A DNA stretch of 64,000 nt, from positions 1 to 64,000 of the forward strand of contig DYEV01000023.1 of assembly GCA_020725545.1 (NCBI GenBank), in the 5' to 3' direction. The DNA comes from Desulfobacca sp. GTDB lineage: Bacteria; Desulfobacterota; Desulfobaccia; Desulfobaccales; Desulfobaccaceae. This document shows positions 9,697 through 45,766 of the stretch, piece by piece. Positions within the stretch are counted from its first letter, which is position 1. Each line of letters opens with the position of its first letter. The notes under the pieces are model-generated. The model searched no databases. It saw nothing but the letters and a program-made list of their open reading frames with translations, and was not told the DNA's origin. Made by a program: the position numbers and the translations under genes.

Positions 9697-9999
9697 ATGA
9701 CGGCTTGGCTGCAGGTAACCTGCACCGGTTGGCTCCTTAAGGTACAGGTCTCGCCGGGCGCAGCCCAGAATCAGATCGTCGGGCCGCACGGCGATCGACT
9801 GAAGATCCGCATTGCCGCGGCGCCGGCCAAAGGCGCGGCCAATAAGACCTTGCTGGAGTTCCTGGCCCAGCGTCTGGGGATTGCCAAACAACACCTGCGC
9901 CTGAAGAGCGGCGCCGGCGACCGCCTGAAGGTGGTGGAGATCGACGGTTTGGAGCCCGAACTCCGGGCTCGACTGCAGGACCTGGCAACGCCGGGGTAA
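9697..9999 (+). CDS. DUF167 (YggU) family protein
   Basis: A 100-residue DUF167 protein. Typical features are VQVSPGAAQNQIVG near residue 17, PAKGAANKTLLEFLA near 43 and the Lys-rich LRLKSGAGDRLKVV stretch. The family has a small alpha/beta fold and no firm function. It is the third gene of the YggT-DivIVA-DUF167 run, with AAAGGGG as ribosome-binding site. Confidence 0.87.
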   Translation: MTAWLQVTCTGWLLKVQVSPGAAQNQIVGPHGDRLKIRIAAAPAKGAANKTLLEFLAQRLGIAKQHLRLKSGAGDRLKVVEIDGLEPELRARLQDLATPG

Positions 10000-10138
10000 G
10001 CCTGGCACTTTTAACCCCAGCACGGTCCTGTGGTTACGCCCCAAAGCAAGAAAGAGGAGAGCTTTGCAACAGCCGGTTAGATCCGGAGACCATGGCAACT
10101 TTAAGAAACTTGCAAGCGGTTGTCTTTTGGTCCCGATC

Positions 10139-10167
10139 TTGACAAAGGGCTAATTGTGTTCAATATT
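10139..10167 (+). promoter_or_regulatory. Sigma-70-like promoter upstream of dnaJ
   Basis: TTGACA at 10139-10144, a 17-base spacer, then AATATT at 10162-10167, 87 bases before the dnaJ start. The -35 box is perfect and the -10 box matches 4 of 6. No CIRCE-type inverted repeat is seen. Confidence 0.55.
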
Positions 10168-10253
10168 TCCTGTATGCAGTGCAGGGCTTTTGGCAGCCAC
10201 GGGCACGGAGCAAGTGGAACACCAAATCGCTAAAAGCAGGGGGCCTTGGTTTT

Positions 10254-11366
10254 ATGGGGGAGAATGTTGACTATTATCAAGTCCTGGGAATTGCTCGGGA
10301 TGCTGATCCGGAGGAGATAAAAAAAGCGTATCGCCGTTTGGCTCTAAAATATCACCCTGACAGAAATCCGGGCGATAAAACGGCCGAGGACCAATTCAAG
10401 GCTGCGGCCGAAGCCTACGAGGTTTTGCGTGATCCCCAAAAACGCCTGCTCTACGATCAGTTTGGCCATGCGGGCTTGGCGGGAACGGGCTTCAACCATT
10501 TTTCTACCTTTGACTCGATTTTCAGCAGTTTCAGTGACATCTTCAATGATTTTTTCGGTTTCAGCAACACTGCCCAAACCCGCCCCCGCCACCAGCCTGG
10601 AAGAGACCTTTATTATCAATTAGAAATAAAATTTCAGGACGCAGTCTTCGGTCTGGAGACCGGTATCGACATCTCCAAAGCCGTCCCTTGTCAGGAGTGT
10701 CAAGGCAGCGGCCGCCGGGATGGCGGCCAGGGGGTGCGGGCCTGTTCCTGCTGTCAGGGTTATGGCACCATTACCCGGCTGGAGGGATTTTTCCGCATCA
10801 ATACCACCTGTCCCCATTGTGGCGGCACCGGCCGCGACGTGGGCGAGCCCTGCCTGGCCTGCGACGGTCGGGGGCTGGCGCGCCAGCAGAAACGGGTTAC
10901 CCTGAAAATTCCGGCGGGGGTAGATGACGGCACGCGGCTGCGGCTGCGGGGCGAGGGCGACGCCGGTCTGGGCGGCGGCCCGCCCGGCGATCTCTACGTC
11001 GACCTAAAAGTAGCGCAACATCCCCTATTTCAACGGGAGGAGAACAACCTGATCTATCGGGCCCAGTTATCCTTCGTGGACGCGGCCCTGGGGACGGAAG
11101 TGGAGATCCCGACCCTCACCGGGTCGGTGCCCTTGGTCATCCCGGCGGGGACCCAACCGGGCGCCCGGTTTACCATCTATGGCGAAGGGGTGCCCATTCT
11201 CCGGGGCAACGGCCGGGGCAATCTCATCGTCGAACTGGACTTGCGGACCCCCACCAACCTGACGCCGCGCCAGGAGGAGCTGTTGCGCAAATTTTTAGCC
11301 ACCAACCGCCCCGGCAAAGGCAAATCCTCCCGTCGCCAGGCAGCTGCCACCAAGGCCGTGGCCTGA
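10254..11366 (+). CDS. dnaJ: DnaJ co-chaperone (Hsp40, type I)
   Basis: A 370-residue type I J-domain protein that stimulates DnaK ATPase and delivers substrates. It shows the J domain with HPD (residues about 5-70), a Phe-rich linker of the G/F type (FNHFSTFDSIFSSFSDIF), four CxxCxGxG-like zinc repeats (CQECQGSG, CSCCQGYG, CPHCGGTG, CLACDGRG) and the C-terminal beta domains. The ATG at 10254 starts the J domain; the frame extends 5' without family similarity. It is convergent with uvrB. dnaK is not in the window, and a second J protein without zinc repeats lies at 23040. Confidence 0.88.
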   Translation: MGENVDYYQVLGIARDADPEEIKKAYRRLALKYHPDRNPGDKTAEDQFKAAAEAYEVLRDPQKRLLYDQFGHAGLAGTGFNHFSTFDSIFSSFSDIFNDFFGFSNTAQTRPRHQPGRDLYYQLEIKFQDAVFGLETGIDISKAVPCQECQGSGRRDGGQGVRACSCCQGYGTITRLEGFFRINTTCPHCGGTGRDVGEPCLACDGRGLARQQKRVTLKIPAGVDDGTRLRLRGEGDAGLGGGPPGDLYVDLKVAQHPLFQREENNLIYRAQLSFVDAALGTEVEIPTLTGSVPLVIPAGTQPGARFTIYGEGVPILRGNGRGNLIVELDLRTPTNLTPRQEELLRKFLATNRPGKGKSSRRQAAATKAVA

Positions 11367-40019: not shown

Positions 40020-40622
40020 CTAGGATAACGCCGCCGCTTCCCGCCCCAGGTGAAAGGCCCTGAGGTTGCTCTCCAGGTGGGCTTTGGGGGTACGGCTGGC
40101 GATAATCTCGGTAATGGTGTCGACACTAAAGGGCACCCGGCCGCTGCTGATGAGGGCGCCCAACAGGACCATGTTCACCGCCAGGGCGCTGCCGGCCTGT
40201 TGGGCCAGGGCATTGGCATCCAGGGCGATGAGGCGGCCGCTGTGGGTCTGGAGCAGCTCCAACATCTGGGCGACCGGCGGATAGGTGGACTGGCCCGTGG
40301 CCACCGTGTAGGGCACGTTGACGCCGGTGTTGGTGACCACCAGCGACCCGGTATGGCAGCGGTTGAGAGAGCGAAAGGTCTCCAAGATCTCAAATCCCAG
40401 GAGGATATCCGCTTCGCCCAGGGAGATGATGGGGCTGGCCAGAGACCCCAGGACCACGGTGGATTCCACTACCCCGCCCCGTTGGGCCATACCATGGGTC
40501 TCGGCTACCTGAACGGGATAGCCGGCGGCCATGGCCGCCTCGCCCAGCAGGCGGGTGGCCAGGAGCGTCCCCTGGCCGCCCACGCCGGTGCAATAGATGC
40601 GAAGTTGCAGGTCATGAGTCAT
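40020..40622 (-). CDS. iorB: Indolepyruvate oxidoreductase subunit beta
   Basis: The 200-residue gamma-domain subunit of indolepyruvate:ferredoxin oxidoreductase, which oxidatively decarboxylates aryl pyruvates from aromatic amino acids to aryl-acetyl-CoA with ferredoxin reduction. It shows CTGVGGQGTLLATRLLGEAA near residue 11 and AETHGMAQRGGVV near 40. GAGGTGAGG precedes the ATG. It follows iorA by 39 bases in one operon. Confidence 0.93.
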   Translation of the reverse strand: MTHDLQLRIYCTGVGGQGTLLATRLLGEAAMAAGYPVQVAETHGMAQRGGVVESTVVLGSLASPIISLGEADILLGFEILETFRSLNRCHTGSLVVTNTGVNVPYTVATGQSTYPPVAQMLELLQTHSGRLIALDANALAQQAGSALAVNMVLLGALISSGRVPFSVDTITEIIASRTPKAHLESNLRAFHLGREAAALS

Positions 40623-40661: not shown

Positions 40662-42542
40662 TCAGGCGCCGCTGGCGGACTTGGCCCGGATGGCCTTTTT
40701 CTGGCAGAGCTGCAGGCAGAAGCCACAGGCATTGCACAAGTTTGCGTCGATCACCAGGGGGCCTTCGCCTTCGAGGGGCGGCTGCAAGGCCGGGCAGCCG
40801 AAGTAATCCAGACAGTGGCGGCAGTCCCGGCATTCCGGGCCCACCACAAAGTTCTTGGCCCGCTTTTTTTGCCCCAAGCGCTGCATATAAAGAATGCAGG
40901 GCGCCCGGGAGATGATGACCCGCACACCTTCGGCCGCCACCGCCTCTTTGATGGCCGCCAGGGTCAGGCGATATTGCAGGGGGTTGACCAGTTTCACCTG
41001 CTCGACGCCCAAGGCCTGGACCACCCGATGAATGTCAATGGTCTGGCCGCCGTAACCGGCTGGCGGCGGGCTGACACCGGGATGAGGCTGGTGCCCGGTC
41101 ATGGCCGTGGTGCCGTTGTCCAGGATGATGAGGAGAAAATTATGCCGGTTATGAACCGCGTCAACCAACCCCGGGATGCCGGAGTGAAAAAAGGTGGAAT
41201 CGCCGATAAAGGCGATGACCTTCTGGCGGGTGGCCGTGGCGATGCCGGCCGCGGTGCTGACGCTGGAGCCCATACACAACAGATAATCCCCCATGCTCAG
41301 CGGCGGCAGCAGACCCAGGGTATAGCAGCCGATATCCGTGGGAAAAATGCCCTCCACGCCCAGGTCCCGGAGGGCGATCTTGACTGCATAGTAGGTGGCC
41401 CGGTGGGAGCAGCCCGGACAAAGGTTGGGCGGCCGCTCGGGCAGCGGGCGCCCCAGCAGGGCCGCCGGGTCCAAAGGCGCCGGGGGGTTGTATGGCACCC
41501 CGAAATACGACGCCACGACCTGCCGGACCAGGCCGGGATGGTATTCAAAGAGGCGGCTGAAGAGGCCCGGACCCTTACCCTGAATGGGCGGCGGCTGCCT
41601 CAGCCCCGCGGCGATGGCCCGTAGCGCCTCCTCCAAATACGGCTCCAGTTCCTCCACCACCAGGACCTTCTCTACTTTAGTCAGAAAATTTTGAATCAGA
41701 CGGGTCGGCAGGGGGTGGGTGAAGCCCAATTTCAGGAGGGTGACCCGATCCCCGATCCCCAGATCGGCGATGGCATCGGTGACATAGGCGGCACTGACGC
41801 CGCTGGTAACAATGCCCCAGGGGCCGTTGCCCTGCACCGTATTCAACCCACAGGTTTCCGCCACCTCGGCCGCTTTGGCCTGCTGGCTCAGCAGAATGCC
41901 GTGGGCCTGGCGGGCCACCGCCGGTACCATGACATAGCGGAAGGGGTTTTTGGCAAAGTGACCCTGGCGCACCCGGGGCTTGAGCTCCCCCAGAACCACC
42001 ACACCCCGGCTGTGGTTGAGCCGGGTAGTGGTGCGGAGAATGACCGGCAGACTCAGTTCTTCGGAAAGCGTCAAGGCATAGGTGGTCATCTCCTTGGCTT
42101 CCTGGGCGCTGGCAGGCTCCAACATAGGCAGACCCGAGAGCTTGGCATAGTAGCGGTTGTCCTGCTCGTTCTGGCTGGAAAACAGGGAAGGATCGTCCGC
42201 GGAGACCAGGACCAGCCCCCCTTTGACGCCGCTGTAGGCCAGGGTCATGAGGGTGTCCGCGGCGACGTTCACCCCCACGTGTTTCATGGCGCACAGAACC
42301 CGCAAACCAGAAACCGCAGCCCCAGCCGCCACCTCCAACGACACTTTTTCGTTGGTGGCATATTCAAAATACAGATCGGTCTCCCGGGAAATCTGATATA
42401 GACGATCGCCGATCTCCGAAGATGGCGTGCCCGGATACTGGGTGGCCAAAGCCACACCTCCCTCGAGAGCCCCCCGGACAATGGCCTCGTTTCCCAACAA
42501 CAGGCGTTTTTCCCCCGGTTGACCGGAAAGTAATGGGTGCAT
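40662..42542 (-). CDS. iorA: Indolepyruvate oxidoreductase subunit alpha
   Basis: The 626-residue alpha subunit with thiamine diphosphate (C-terminal ThDP region with GDSTFFHSG and DNGTTAMTG; CPGCSHRATYYAVK upstream) and a C-terminal 2[4Fe-4S] ferredoxin domain (CRDCRHCLDYFGCPA; CNACGFCLQLC). The N-terminal pyrimidine-binding part has TQYPGTPSSEIGD and YATNEKVSLEVAAGAA. ATG at 42542 preferred over an in-frame ATG four codons earlier. The cofactors suit an anaerobe that reduces ferredoxin during amino acid oxidation. Confidence 0.94.
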   Translation of the reverse strand: MHPLLSGQPGEKRLLLGNEAIVRGALEGGVALATQYPGTPSSEIGDRLYQISRETDLYFEYATNEKVSLEVAAGAAVSGLRVLCAMKHVGVNVAADTLMTLAYSGVKGGLVLVSADDPSLFSSQNEQDNRYYAKLSGLPMLEPASAQEAKEMTTYALTLSEELSLPVILRTTTRLNHSRGVVVLGELKPRVRQGHFAKNPFRYVMVPAVARQAHGILLSQQAKAAEVAETCGLNTVQGNGPWGIVTSGVSAAYVTDAIADLGIGDRVTLLKLGFTHPLPTRLIQNFLTKVEKVLVVEELEPYLEEALRAIAAGLRQPPPIQGKGPGLFSRLFEYHPGLVRQVVASYFGVPYNPPAPLDPAALLGRPLPERPPNLCPGCSHRATYYAVKIALRDLGVEGIFPTDIGCYTLGLLPPLSMGDYLLCMGSSVSTAAGIATATRQKVIAFIGDSTFFHSGIPGLVDAVHNRHNFLLIILDNGTTAMTGHQPHPGVSPPPAGYGGQTIDIHRVVQALGVEQVKLVNPLQYRLTLAAIKEAVAAEGVRVIISRAPCILYMQRLGQKKRAKNFVVGPECRDCRHCLDYFGCPALQPPLEGEGPLVIDANLCNACGFCLQLCQKKAIRAKSASGA

Positions 42543-42822
42543 AGTATACCTCAAAGATGTGACGGGGAGGCGCCAGAGGACCTGCCCCGCCTGCTGTTAG
42601 CCCGATCCGAACTCCGGCCGGACCGGAGCCGCTCATTTTCTCCCGGTTGGGTGTTGCCAAACCAGGATTTTGAATTACCATATATACATTCTGATGACAA
42701 TCAAAAATTGCAACGGCGGCGTGTCCGTGACATTGGAAAAAATCCTTGCAAAATCACAAACCGCCGTTTATATATCACTTTCGTCACCTTCAGCCAACGC
42801 CATGTCACAGGGGGGGATTGCA

Positions 42823-43275
42823 GTGAGAGAAGTGGGTAATATCCGGTTCAGCCAGGATCATCTCTGGGCCCGCTTGGAAGAAGACGGCCGTGTCACCATC
42901 GGCATATCCGACTTTCTCCAAGAGGATGTGGGGGAGATTTATAATATCAACCTGCCCGAAGAGGGCGAGGAACTCATTAAAGACGAGGCCTTCAGCGTCA
43001 TTGACGCGCAAAGCGGCCGCCGGGAGCTGTTGGCGCCCCTTTCTGGCGAAGTGGTCGAAGTCAATTATGAATTGAACGATGTCCCGGAACTGGCCAATGA
43101 GGACCCTTATGAAGAGGGCTGGATCCTCCGTCTGGACATGACTGTCCCCGGCGAGTTCAACGAATTGCTTACCGAAGAGGAATACGAGGAATATTTAAAA
43201 GAAGAAGAGGAAGACTTCGATTTCGAAGAAGAATACGAGGAAGAAGAATATCTGGAGGAAGACGAGGACGAATAA
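42823..43275 (+). CDS. GcvH-like protein lacking the lipoyl lysine
   Basis: A protein of about 150 residues similar to glycine cleavage H protein over residues 8-125: FSQDHLWARLEEDGRVTIGI, DVGEIYNINLPEEGEEL, LLAPLSGEVVEVNYELND, PELANEDPYEEGWILRL. The lipoyl-attachment ESVKA is DAQSG here, with Ser64 at the lysine position and no lysine nearby, so it cannot carry lipoate in the usual way. The tail (about 125-150) is almost entirely Glu, Asp and Tyr. The GTG at 42823 follows GGGGGGA; an ATG at 42802 and a longer frame from 42670 are possible. It is divergent from iorA and upstream of ResB/CcsA. Confidence 0.8.
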   Translation: MREVGNIRFSQDHLWARLEEDGRVTIGISDFLQEDVGEIYNINLPEEGEELIKDEAFSVIDAQSGRRELLAPLSGEVVEVNYELNDVPELANEDPYEEGWILRLDMTVPGEFNELLTEEEYEEYLKEEEEDFDFEEEYEEEEYLEEDEDE

Positions 43276-43604: not shown

Positions 43605-44921
43605 ATGTGGCTATCTCTTTGGCAAGGACTTACCTCCGTCCGCCTGGCCCTCCTCTCCCTGCTCCTGGTCGGCCTCGGCTCTATCCTCGGCACCCTCCTG
43701 CCCCAACGGCAGGCCTTGGAGTTCTATCAGGAGCGCTTCGGCACCGTGGGCGCTGCCCTCATCGGCCGCCTGGGTCTGGACGACGTCTATCGCAGTCCCA
43801 TCTTTCTCAGTTTCATCGCCCTGCTGCTGCTCAACCTCATTGCCTGTTCTCTGAAACGGCTGCCGGAGGTTTGGCGCCAAGTGCAGAGCCAGCCGGGTCT
43901 GGAGGCCTATAAAACCCTGCCCCCCCGGCTGCAGCTCACCTGGAACCGGCCGGAGCAGTCGCCCCAGCAATTTCTAATGGGGGCCCTGCCCCGCCTGCTC
44001 GGCCGGCCAAAGGTGGTGGAGGACAACGGCACCACCTGGTATCTTATCCGCCGGGGCCGCTGGGGCCGATTGGGACCTTATATTATCCATCTGAGCATCA
44101 TCATTGTCATCATCGGGGCCATTATCGGCAACCTGGGTGGGTTTCAGGGGCAGATCAACCTCATGCCCGGCGAAGCCACCGACGTCCTCCGCCTCACTGA
44201 CCCGCCCGGGGACAAAAAGCTGGATTTCAGCATCCGATTGGACAATTTTCAGGTCAGTTATTACCCCAATGGCACGCCCCAGGAATTCCGCTCCGACCTC
44301 ACCTTCCTGCAGGGCGGCCAGCCCGTTAAAACAGCCATCCTTCGGGTCAATGATCCGGTGACCTTCGGCCACCTGACCTTTTACCAATCCACCTACCAGG
44401 CCATGCCCCAGGGGCCAGTGGTCCTGGAAGCGACTCTGGGGGAAAAGACGTTTATGGTAGAGGCATCTCTGCGCCAACGCCTGCCCCTGCCCGACGACCA
44501 GGGCATGATCATGGTCTGGAAGGTGGAGAGCAACATCATGGGCCTGGGCCCGGCCGTGCAACTGGCCTATCGGCCGACCGGCGGCGGCCACCCCCTCCTG
44601 TTCTGGGTGCTGGCCGATACCAGCCGGGGTCAACCGCCTCAGCCCGGTCCTCTTACCTTTCGCATTAAAGAGTTGGCCTTAACCTATAGTTCGGGCCTTT
44701 TGGTCAAATATGATCCCGGCGTTGGGTGGGTCTACCTGGGTTTCCTGTTGATGTTGCCCGGCTTCTGGCTGGCCCTGTTCGTGCCCCGGCAGCGCTGGGC
44801 CATCGCCGTGGTACCCCAGGGGAAAGGGAAGTACCGTCTGACCATCGCCGGGGTGGGCGACCGCCACAAAATTGTACTGCAGCGGCGTCTGGAAAAACTC
44901 CAGGCCGCGTTTGAGGAATAA
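43605..44921 (+). CDS. resB: Cytochrome c biogenesis protein ResB/Ccs1
   Basis: The 438-residue partner of CcsA in system II cytochrome c maturation, thought to help deliver haem to apocytochromes outside the membrane. It has a membrane helix near residues 10-30 (LLSLLLVGLGSILGTLLP), one near 65-80, a third near 160-180 (YIIHLSIIIVIIGAIIG), a large extracytoplasmic domain with VNDPVTFGHLTFYQSTYQ, and a last helix near 370-388. The stop lies 2 bases before the CcsA start. It supports c-type cytochromes expected in a sulfate reducer. Confidence 0.92.
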   Translation: MWLSLWQGLTSVRLALLSLLLVGLGSILGTLLPQRQALEFYQERFGTVGAALIGRLGLDDVYRSPIFLSFIALLLLNLIACSLKRLPEVWRQVQSQPGLEAYKTLPPRLQLTWNRPEQSPQQFLMGALPRLLGRPKVVEDNGTTWYLIRRGRWGRLGPYIIHLSIIIVIIGAIIGNLGGFQGQINLMPGEATDVLRLTDPPGDKKLDFSIRLDNFQVSYYPNGTPQEFRSDLTFLQGGQPVKTAILRVNDPVTFGHLTFYQSTYQAMPQGPVVLEATLGEKTFMVEASLRQRLPLPDDQGMIMVWKVESNIMGLGPAVQLAYRPTGGGHPLLFWVLADTSRGQPPQPGPLTFRIKELALTYSSGLLVKYDPGVGWVYLGFLLMLPGFWLALFVPRQRWAIAVVPQGKGKYRLTIAGVGDRHKIVLQRRLEKLQAAFEE

Positions 44922-44923
44922 GT

Positions 44924-45766
44924 ATGAGTGCCAAACTTTTGGGATGGGTCCTACTGCTCTATTTCAGCGGCAGCCTGCTCTATCTGGTGGCTGCAGTCTT
45001 CCAGCAGCGCCCTTTAAACCTCCCGGCCCGCTGGGCAGTGCTGGGCGGCTGGGGCCTCCATACCCTCAGCCTCATCTGGCGGTGGGTTGAATCCCATCAA
45101 TTAAACATCGGCCACGCACCATTGGCCAATTTCTATGAATCCCTGGTCTTTTTCTCCTGGGCGGTCATCTGCGTCGCCTATCTGTCGTTCTGGCGGCAGA
45201 TGCGGGACTACCTGGGCAGCTTCGTGGCCATACTGGCCTGCCTGATCCTGGCCTATGCCTCCTTCGGCGGCCATGCCAGCGACATCATGCCCCTGATGCC
45301 AGCCCTGAAGAGCAACTGGCTGATCATCCACGTCATCACCTGCTTTTTGGCCTACGCCGCCTTTGCCCTGGGCTTTGGCGCCGCGCTGCTCTACTTCTTT
45401 GTTTCCCGGCCAGCCACTGTTAAAAAACAACGGGAACGACAGGCCCAGCTGCTCGTCACTGCCCAGGACTTGGATGACCTCATCTATCGGGCCATTATGA
45501 TCGGCTTTTTCCTCCTCACCTTGGGGATCCTCACCGGCGCGGTCTGGGCCGAATCGGCCTGGGGGCGCTATTGGAGCTGGGACCCCAAAGAGACCTGGTC
45601 CCTAATTACCTGGCTGGTCTATGCCGGACTTCTGCACGCCCGCTTCGCCCGGGGCTGGCAGGGGAAACGCATCGCCCTCCTGGCGGTGGTGGGGTTTGCG
45701 GCGGTGCTGTTCACCTACTTCGGCGTCAGCTTCCTGCTGCCGGGGTTGCATGCGTATTTAACATAG
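44924..45766 (+). CDS. ccsA: Cytochrome c assembly protein CcsA/ResC
   Basis: A 280-residue integral membrane protein with about eight helices. It carries the haem-handling signature WGRYWSWDPKETWSLITWLV near residue 215 (a WWD-type tryptophan-rich motif), with conserved His residues in other helices (for example HTLSLIW, LIIHVITCF and LLHARF). Together with ResB it forms the haem lyase of system II. It starts 2 bases after the ResB stop, so the pair is translated as a unit. Confidence 0.92.
   Translation: MSAKLLGWVLLLYFSGSLLYLVAAVFQQRPLNLPARWAVLGGWGLHTLSLIWRWVESHQLNIGHAPLANFYESLVFFSWAVICVAYLSFWRQMRDYLGSFVAILACLILAYASFGGHASDIMPLMPALKSNWLIIHVITCFLAYAAFALGFGAALLYFFVSRPATVKKQRERQAQLLVTAQDLDDLIYRAIMIGFFLLTLGILTGAVWAESAWGRYWSWDPKETWSLITWLVYAGLLHARFARGWQGKRIALLAVVGFAAVLFTYFGVSFLLPGLHAYLT

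Follow-up and report, generated by a model that had tools for sequence, protein, structure and literature searches.

An acidic-tailed GcvH-like protein without the lipoyl-lysine, conserved in Desulfobacca and its relatives, as a possible cofactor-free pseudo-carrier

In a 64,000-nucleotide stretch of DNA from Desulfobacca sp. (contig DYEV01000023.1, positions 1 to 64,000; here called the window) we identified a gene for a GcvH-like protein that is almost certainly not an H-protein of the glycine cleavage system (GCS). We give a probability of about one half to the reading of a pseudo-carrier, an H-protein paralogue that is inherited vertically, is free of cofactor and acts outside the GCS by binding a partner, the likeliest partner being the cytochrome c maturation proteins ResB-CcsA encoded just downstream. 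The coordinates of the gene, its diagnostic codons and its neighbours are collected in Table 1.

Table 1. Features of the gcvH-like locus, in window coordinates.
Feature	Coordinates	Strand	Basis
iorB, divergent, conserved in family f1 only	40020..40622	-	POR domain; IOR beta models below cut-offs
iorA, divergent, conserved in family f1 only	40662..42554	-	TIGR03336, 738.6 bits
GcvH-like protein without lipoyl-Lys, 150 aa	42823..43275	+	ORF, GTG start
Leu14 codon, at the Glu14 position (aminomethyl-nitrogen ligand in GCS H-proteins)	42862..42864	+	alignments; PMC7733448
Ser64 codon, at the lipoyl-Lys position (pea Lys63, E. coli Lys64)	43012..43014	+	alignments
acidic C-terminal tail, residues 126-150 (KEEEEDFDFEEEYEEEEYLEEDEDE)	43198..43272	+	19/25 D/E
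resB (Ccs1-like, System II cytochrome c biogenesis), conserved downstream	43605..44921	+	Pfam ResB, 261.6 bits
ccsA/ccsB (System II cytochrome c biogenesis)	44924..45766	+	TIGR03144, 267 bits (cut-off 187.6)

The start codon is preceded, 6 nt upstream, by a G-rich ribosome-binding stretch (GGGGGGG). Residues 8-127 of the protein match GCV_H (PF01597) with 119.4 bits (gathering score 22.2), and among the NCBIfam models it scores 123.1 bits with NF002270, above the cut-off of 117, and 106.4 bits with the equivalog TIGR00527, below the cut-off of 115.85. Identity to the pea, mouse and bovine H-proteins is 35-41%, with the same fold over the full length. The AlphaFold2 model (28 sequences; mean pLDDT 85.2, pTM 0.73, most core blocks about 90 or more) was compared with the PDB and gave Z 20-21 and rmsd 1.1-1.9 Å to the bovine, pea and E. 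coli H-proteins (3klr: Z 21, rmsd 1.1 Å over 125 residues), whereas lipoyl and biotinyl domains scored far lower (Z 7-8). The tail appears in the model as a low-confidence continuation of the C-terminal helix (118-146), and the whole protein has a pI of 4.05, a net charge of -44 and no Cys. The initial annotation had described a conserved H-protein fold, a 25-residue acidic tail and a Ser64 in place of the lipoylated Lys with no other Lys near it; each of these descriptions is borne out, the nearest Lys being Lys53.

When aligned with the pea, bovine and mouse H-proteins and with relatives, the ESVKA of the lipoyl site reads DAQSG, and it is Ser64, not a conserved Lys, that the alignments place at the lipoyl position. 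The lipoyl-Lys is absent in 37 of the 38 members of the clade described below; the exception, G033, still has a Lys there and counts against our reading. The motif is EAQxG or DAQSG in the genus of the window, ETxEG in the other genus of its family and EAKNG, where a Lys precedes the site by one residue, in most sister-family members, and it becomes ESQNE, ESQGE, EAQLS or EAQRS in family f10, ESSES in f18 and ESTDE in f6. Outside the acidic-tailed clade the Lys was lost at least two more times (L126, L054). We are nearly certain that the window protein is not lipoylated.

The pocket for the cargo has changed as well. In simulations of the E. coli H-protein, Glu12 and Glu14 hold the aminomethyl nitrogen, and its exit path runs past Ser67, Asp68 and Tyr70 (PMC7733448). 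Position 14 is hydrophobic and never Glu in 38/38 clade members, Ser67 is mostly Arg in the order, and a G-R(K) motif takes the place of the residues that follow the lipoyl-Lys. Over all loci fetched, 50 of the 51 with Glu14 flank gcvT or gcvP, compared with none of the 62 without it, counts that describe a pattern and carry no p-value because the loci are phylogenetically non-independent (many are from Vibrio). The Glu14-less loci include Nitrospirae gcvH-lpd, Geobacteraceae accBC-gcvH, the acidic-tailed clade and a protein that has the Lys and lies close to lipA and hdr-like genes. Taken together, Lys64 and Glu14 provide an easy way to recognise true GCS H-proteins by sequence.

Several other GcvH-domain genes were observed along the way. 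In the Geobacteraceae loci L129 and L143 (about 6.1-8.4 kb) a Lys-bearing, Glu14-less GcvH-like gene stands right after lookalikes of accB-accC (acetyl-CoA carboxylase). Genome G000 encodes, at C25:174.6-177.5 kb (L049:8604-11522, minus strand), a 972-residue protein that joins HdrA2-like, FlpD/MvhD and molybdopterin-binding parts and ends in a GCV_H domain lacking the lipoyl-Lys; HdrA-like and MetF/MetV-like genes are its neighbours, and it is possibly an uncommon fusion for electron transfer. In the same genome, two pairs of larger proteins with a GcvH domain (230-300 residues where measured), at L050:9432-10124 and 10643-10933 (plus strand) and at L051:8749-9651 and 9727-10416 (minus strand), have neither the canonical lipoyl-Lys (ALIRQGHKAKVLAP type) nor Glu14, and all six GCV_H hits of that genome are without both residues.

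Among the 99 relatives searched are 29 genomes of the order formed by Desulfobacca and its relatives, and 28 of these carry an orthologue (21 of 22 in the sister family); G027, which is 69% complete, was the only one without it. The near-identical gene of G001 (94%) and the orthologue of the single-contig genome G003 (74%), which has the same features, exclude a sequencing artefact. An acidic-rich C-terminal extension of 8-25 residues is found in all orthologues and in the homologues of families f10, f18 and f6, and is longest (24-25) in Desulfobacca. Homologues with both peculiarities, no lipoyl-Lys and an acidic tail, occur throughout the order and in families f10, f18 and f6, apart from G033. 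In a tree built with the lipoyl-loop columns omitted, the acidic-tailed homologues formed one group of 38 rows with support of 94/92 (97/91 without the f6 row), which joins the orthologues of the order to the homologues of the three other families. The loss of the Lys is order-wide and older than the order itself. Our literature search returned no publication describing GcvH proteins that lack the Lys as a family.

The initial annotation had placed the gene beside iorAB and cytochrome c assembly genes, away from glycine cleavage genes, and had proposed to look for co-occurrence with iorAB or with dsr/hdr genes. Both sets of neighbours do adjoin the gene in the window, but only one of the links persisted. 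In all 27 loci with downstream sequence (6 in family f1, 21 in f2) the gene that comes next is resB, in the same orientation as the gcvH-like gene, with ccsA after resB wherever the contig extends that far in the loci examined, and resB-ccsA is the sole neighbour kept across the two families of the order. The pairing with iorAB was rejected, as it is confined to family f1 and missing in the sister family, where a Usp gene occupies the upstream place in several genomes; other tested genes were likewise not conserved across both families, and the ORF lists examined at the locus held no dsr or hdr genes. The gap between the gcvH-like gene and resB is mostly 66-130 bp and about 320-440 bp in four loci, that of the window included, with no conserved terminator or hairpin and no clear-cut promoter or terminator pattern in it. 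These gap sizes, and a shared transcript with resB that is only putative, count against a functional link, and we consider it possible, though doubtful, that the protein acts together with ResB-CcsA. In our literature search, ResB and CcsA occurred together with glycine cleavage only in a paper on iron deficiency in Bacteroidetes, which is apparently irrelevant.

The alternative that survives best also sees a cofactor-free H-protein adaptor, but one with a general housekeeping task such as lipoprotein maturation, translation or acyl metabolism, which has resB-ccsA as a neighbour by descent only. In the outgroup families f10, f18 and f6 the surroundings are wholly different, so that the adjacency to resB-ccsA is perhaps incidental: the gene follows ileS-lspA-lgt, with lspA and/or lgt upstream in 10/10 informative loci, and precedes sir2-tolQR-type genes or fabD instead of resB. 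We regard this alternative as a serious possibility that falls short of probable, since resB-ccsA alone was conserved through both families of the order. In two of the f10 loci (L076:10651-11247 and L082:6897-7640) a Sir2 sirtuin gene was seen directly 3' of the Lys-less GcvH-like gene, a pairing that recalls the sirtuin/GcvH-L operons.

That the gene stands apart from glycine cleavage agrees with the gene content of the order, as GcvP and GcvT were each found in 0 of 29 genomes while the positive controls were detected. In the 22 genomes of the sister family, LipA reached the cut-off in three and LplA/LipB was found in four; both were undetected in 18, of which 17 retain the gcvH-like gene, counts that come from MAGs and cover the known lipoate enzymes, other kinds being possible. 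These numbers bear on the idea of a decoy or inhibitor that, by its likeness to an H-protein, would block or regulate a different lipoyl-protein system of the cell, much as was first proposed for BADC proteins. The well-preserved H-protein surface would suit such a role, as would a separate GcvH-like protein that bears the Lys and whose gene lies beside lpd, lipA and lplA in some genomes of the order. Most genomes of the sister family, however, keep the gene with no detected LipA, LplA/LipB or GcvT/GcvP to inhibit, and a decoy appears improbable.

The Lys-bearing paralogue itself, with the motif IETIKATF, was observed at L192-L198 (G001, G023, G026, G025, G024, G007 and G010), and adjoins lpd, lipA and lplA in G001, G023 and G026. 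Lipoate genes share its contig stretch in G001, G023, G025 and G026, where it is their obvious client; LipA and LplA were undetected in G007 and G010, which also encode it. It lies amid ArsM-, ArsR-, Acr3- and arsenate-reductase-like genes, identified by eye only, and could possibly be the lipoylated carrier of an arsenic island.

A carrier that is still lipoylated or acylated, through Lys63 in the sister family or through the conserved Lys53, is very unlikely for the acidic-tailed protein. Lys63, one residue before the site, is present in 18 of the 38 clade members and Lys53 in 35, but Lys63 is missing from the window protein and from all of family f1, which rules it out as a substitute site; Glu14 is lost, and the lipoate enzymes are mostly undetected in the sister family. 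Lipoylation, moreover, requires a Lys exactly at the tip of the hairpin, as in the lipoyl domains of E2 proteins. A decaying gcvH relic or a sequencing error, suggested by an order without the GCS and by two damaged copies (frameshifted in the G006 MAG, interrupted by an N-run in G014), is scarcely credible against a gene that is intact in about 26 genomes, carries the identical substitution pattern in independent assemblies and gave NG86 dN/dS values of 0.02-0.14 between close pairs, indicating purifying selection and ruling out a pseudogene or frameshift. NG86 values are given because the YN00 results of Biopython were inconsistent, with implausibly low dS; as some NG86 dS values are saturated, the argument is based on the closest pairs.

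As the fold is kept while the attachment residue, the cargo pocket, the Cys and the old pathway partners are all missing, protein binding is the likeliest activity, and the protein is probably an adaptor and not an enzyme or a carrier. Of the repurposed scaffold or carrier that had been suggested at the outset, the part outside the GCS thus stands, with no Lys, Glu14 or GcvP/GcvT and with purifying selection, and the carrier part is unlikely for want of an attachment residue and of Cys. In the pseudo-carrier reading, the rigid H-protein barrel and the C-terminal helix would have been retained as a protein-binding platform to which the acidic extension was added, and the activity would consist in binding a partner, with no group on a lipoyl arm. 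Within the order we name the ResB-CcsA machinery, tentatively, as the best candidate partner. As the outgroup members lie behind lspA-lgt, the partner could more broadly be any component on the cytoplasmic side of the membrane that takes part in the maturation of envelope proteins, a theme that resB-ccsA and lspA-lgt would share. The protein-binding role, the partner and the purpose of the tail are inferred; the missing Lys and Glu14, the order without GcvP and GcvT, the clade, the purifying selection and the conserved gene order are observed.

In its narrowest form, an unlikely one, this reading makes the protein a cytoplasmic accessory factor dedicated to cytochrome c maturation by System II in the Desulfobacca order; no earlier H-protein family would then combine the loss of the cofactor with an assembly role of its own, and System II would have a previously unseen component. 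A real link to ResB-CcsA would mean one more soluble accessory for cytochrome c maturation, and a bacterial counterpart of the BADC-type pseudo-carriers. Databases probably misname the gene as a glycine cleavage carrier: NF002270 would give it the name 'glycine cleavage system protein GcvH', and a metabolic reconstruction could in this way credit the order with the carrier of a missing pathway. A study of Desulfobacterota noted GCSH in all clades (PMC12827605).

A new role for the fold, as initially proposed, holds in kind, but the re-use of H-proteins without the GCS is already known from LbpA, GcvH-L and not_gcvH. With the GCS H-protein the window protein shares the fold and a score above the NF002270 cut-off; it differs in its missing lipoyl-Lys and Glu14, its score below the TIGR00527 cut-off, its remodelled G-R loop and acidic tail, and an order without GcvP and GcvT. 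LbpA, the lipoate-binding protein of sHdr sulfur oxidation, is also GcvH-like and likewise comes without genes for glycine cleavage, but it keeps the Lys, mostly has two conserved Cys and has hdr neighbours (PMC6067878). The window protein is not an LbpA: it has no Cys and lacks the Lys at the lipoyl position, and the ORF lists of its locus contain no hdr genes. GcvH-L is both lipoylated and ADP-ribosylated by SirTM. It is found in Streptococcus and Staphylococcus (PDB 5a35; PMC4518038) and also uses the H-protein fold outside glycine cleavage, but its similarity to the window protein is weak (33 bits) and the window locus has no macrodomain/LplA2 operon. Two curated families of GcvH-like proteins that are not GcvH, the chlamydial not_gcvH (TIGR03077) and GcvH_rel_desulf (NF045810), were rejected, as the window protein scored 56.2 and 38.4 bits against equivalog cut-offs of 144.05 and 150. 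BADC proteins have no biotinylation motif, and were first seen as inhibitors and later reported to assist the assembly of acetyl-CoA carboxylase (PMC11926652). Like the window protein they are a retained carrier fold without the attachment residue, kept in their case as an assembly factor (PMC11926652), but they belong to the biotin family and have acetyl-CoA carboxylase as partner, whereas the window protein belongs to the lipoyl family and has a candidate partner only. By analogy, the window protein may work like a BADC pseudo-carrier while not being a member of the BADC family.
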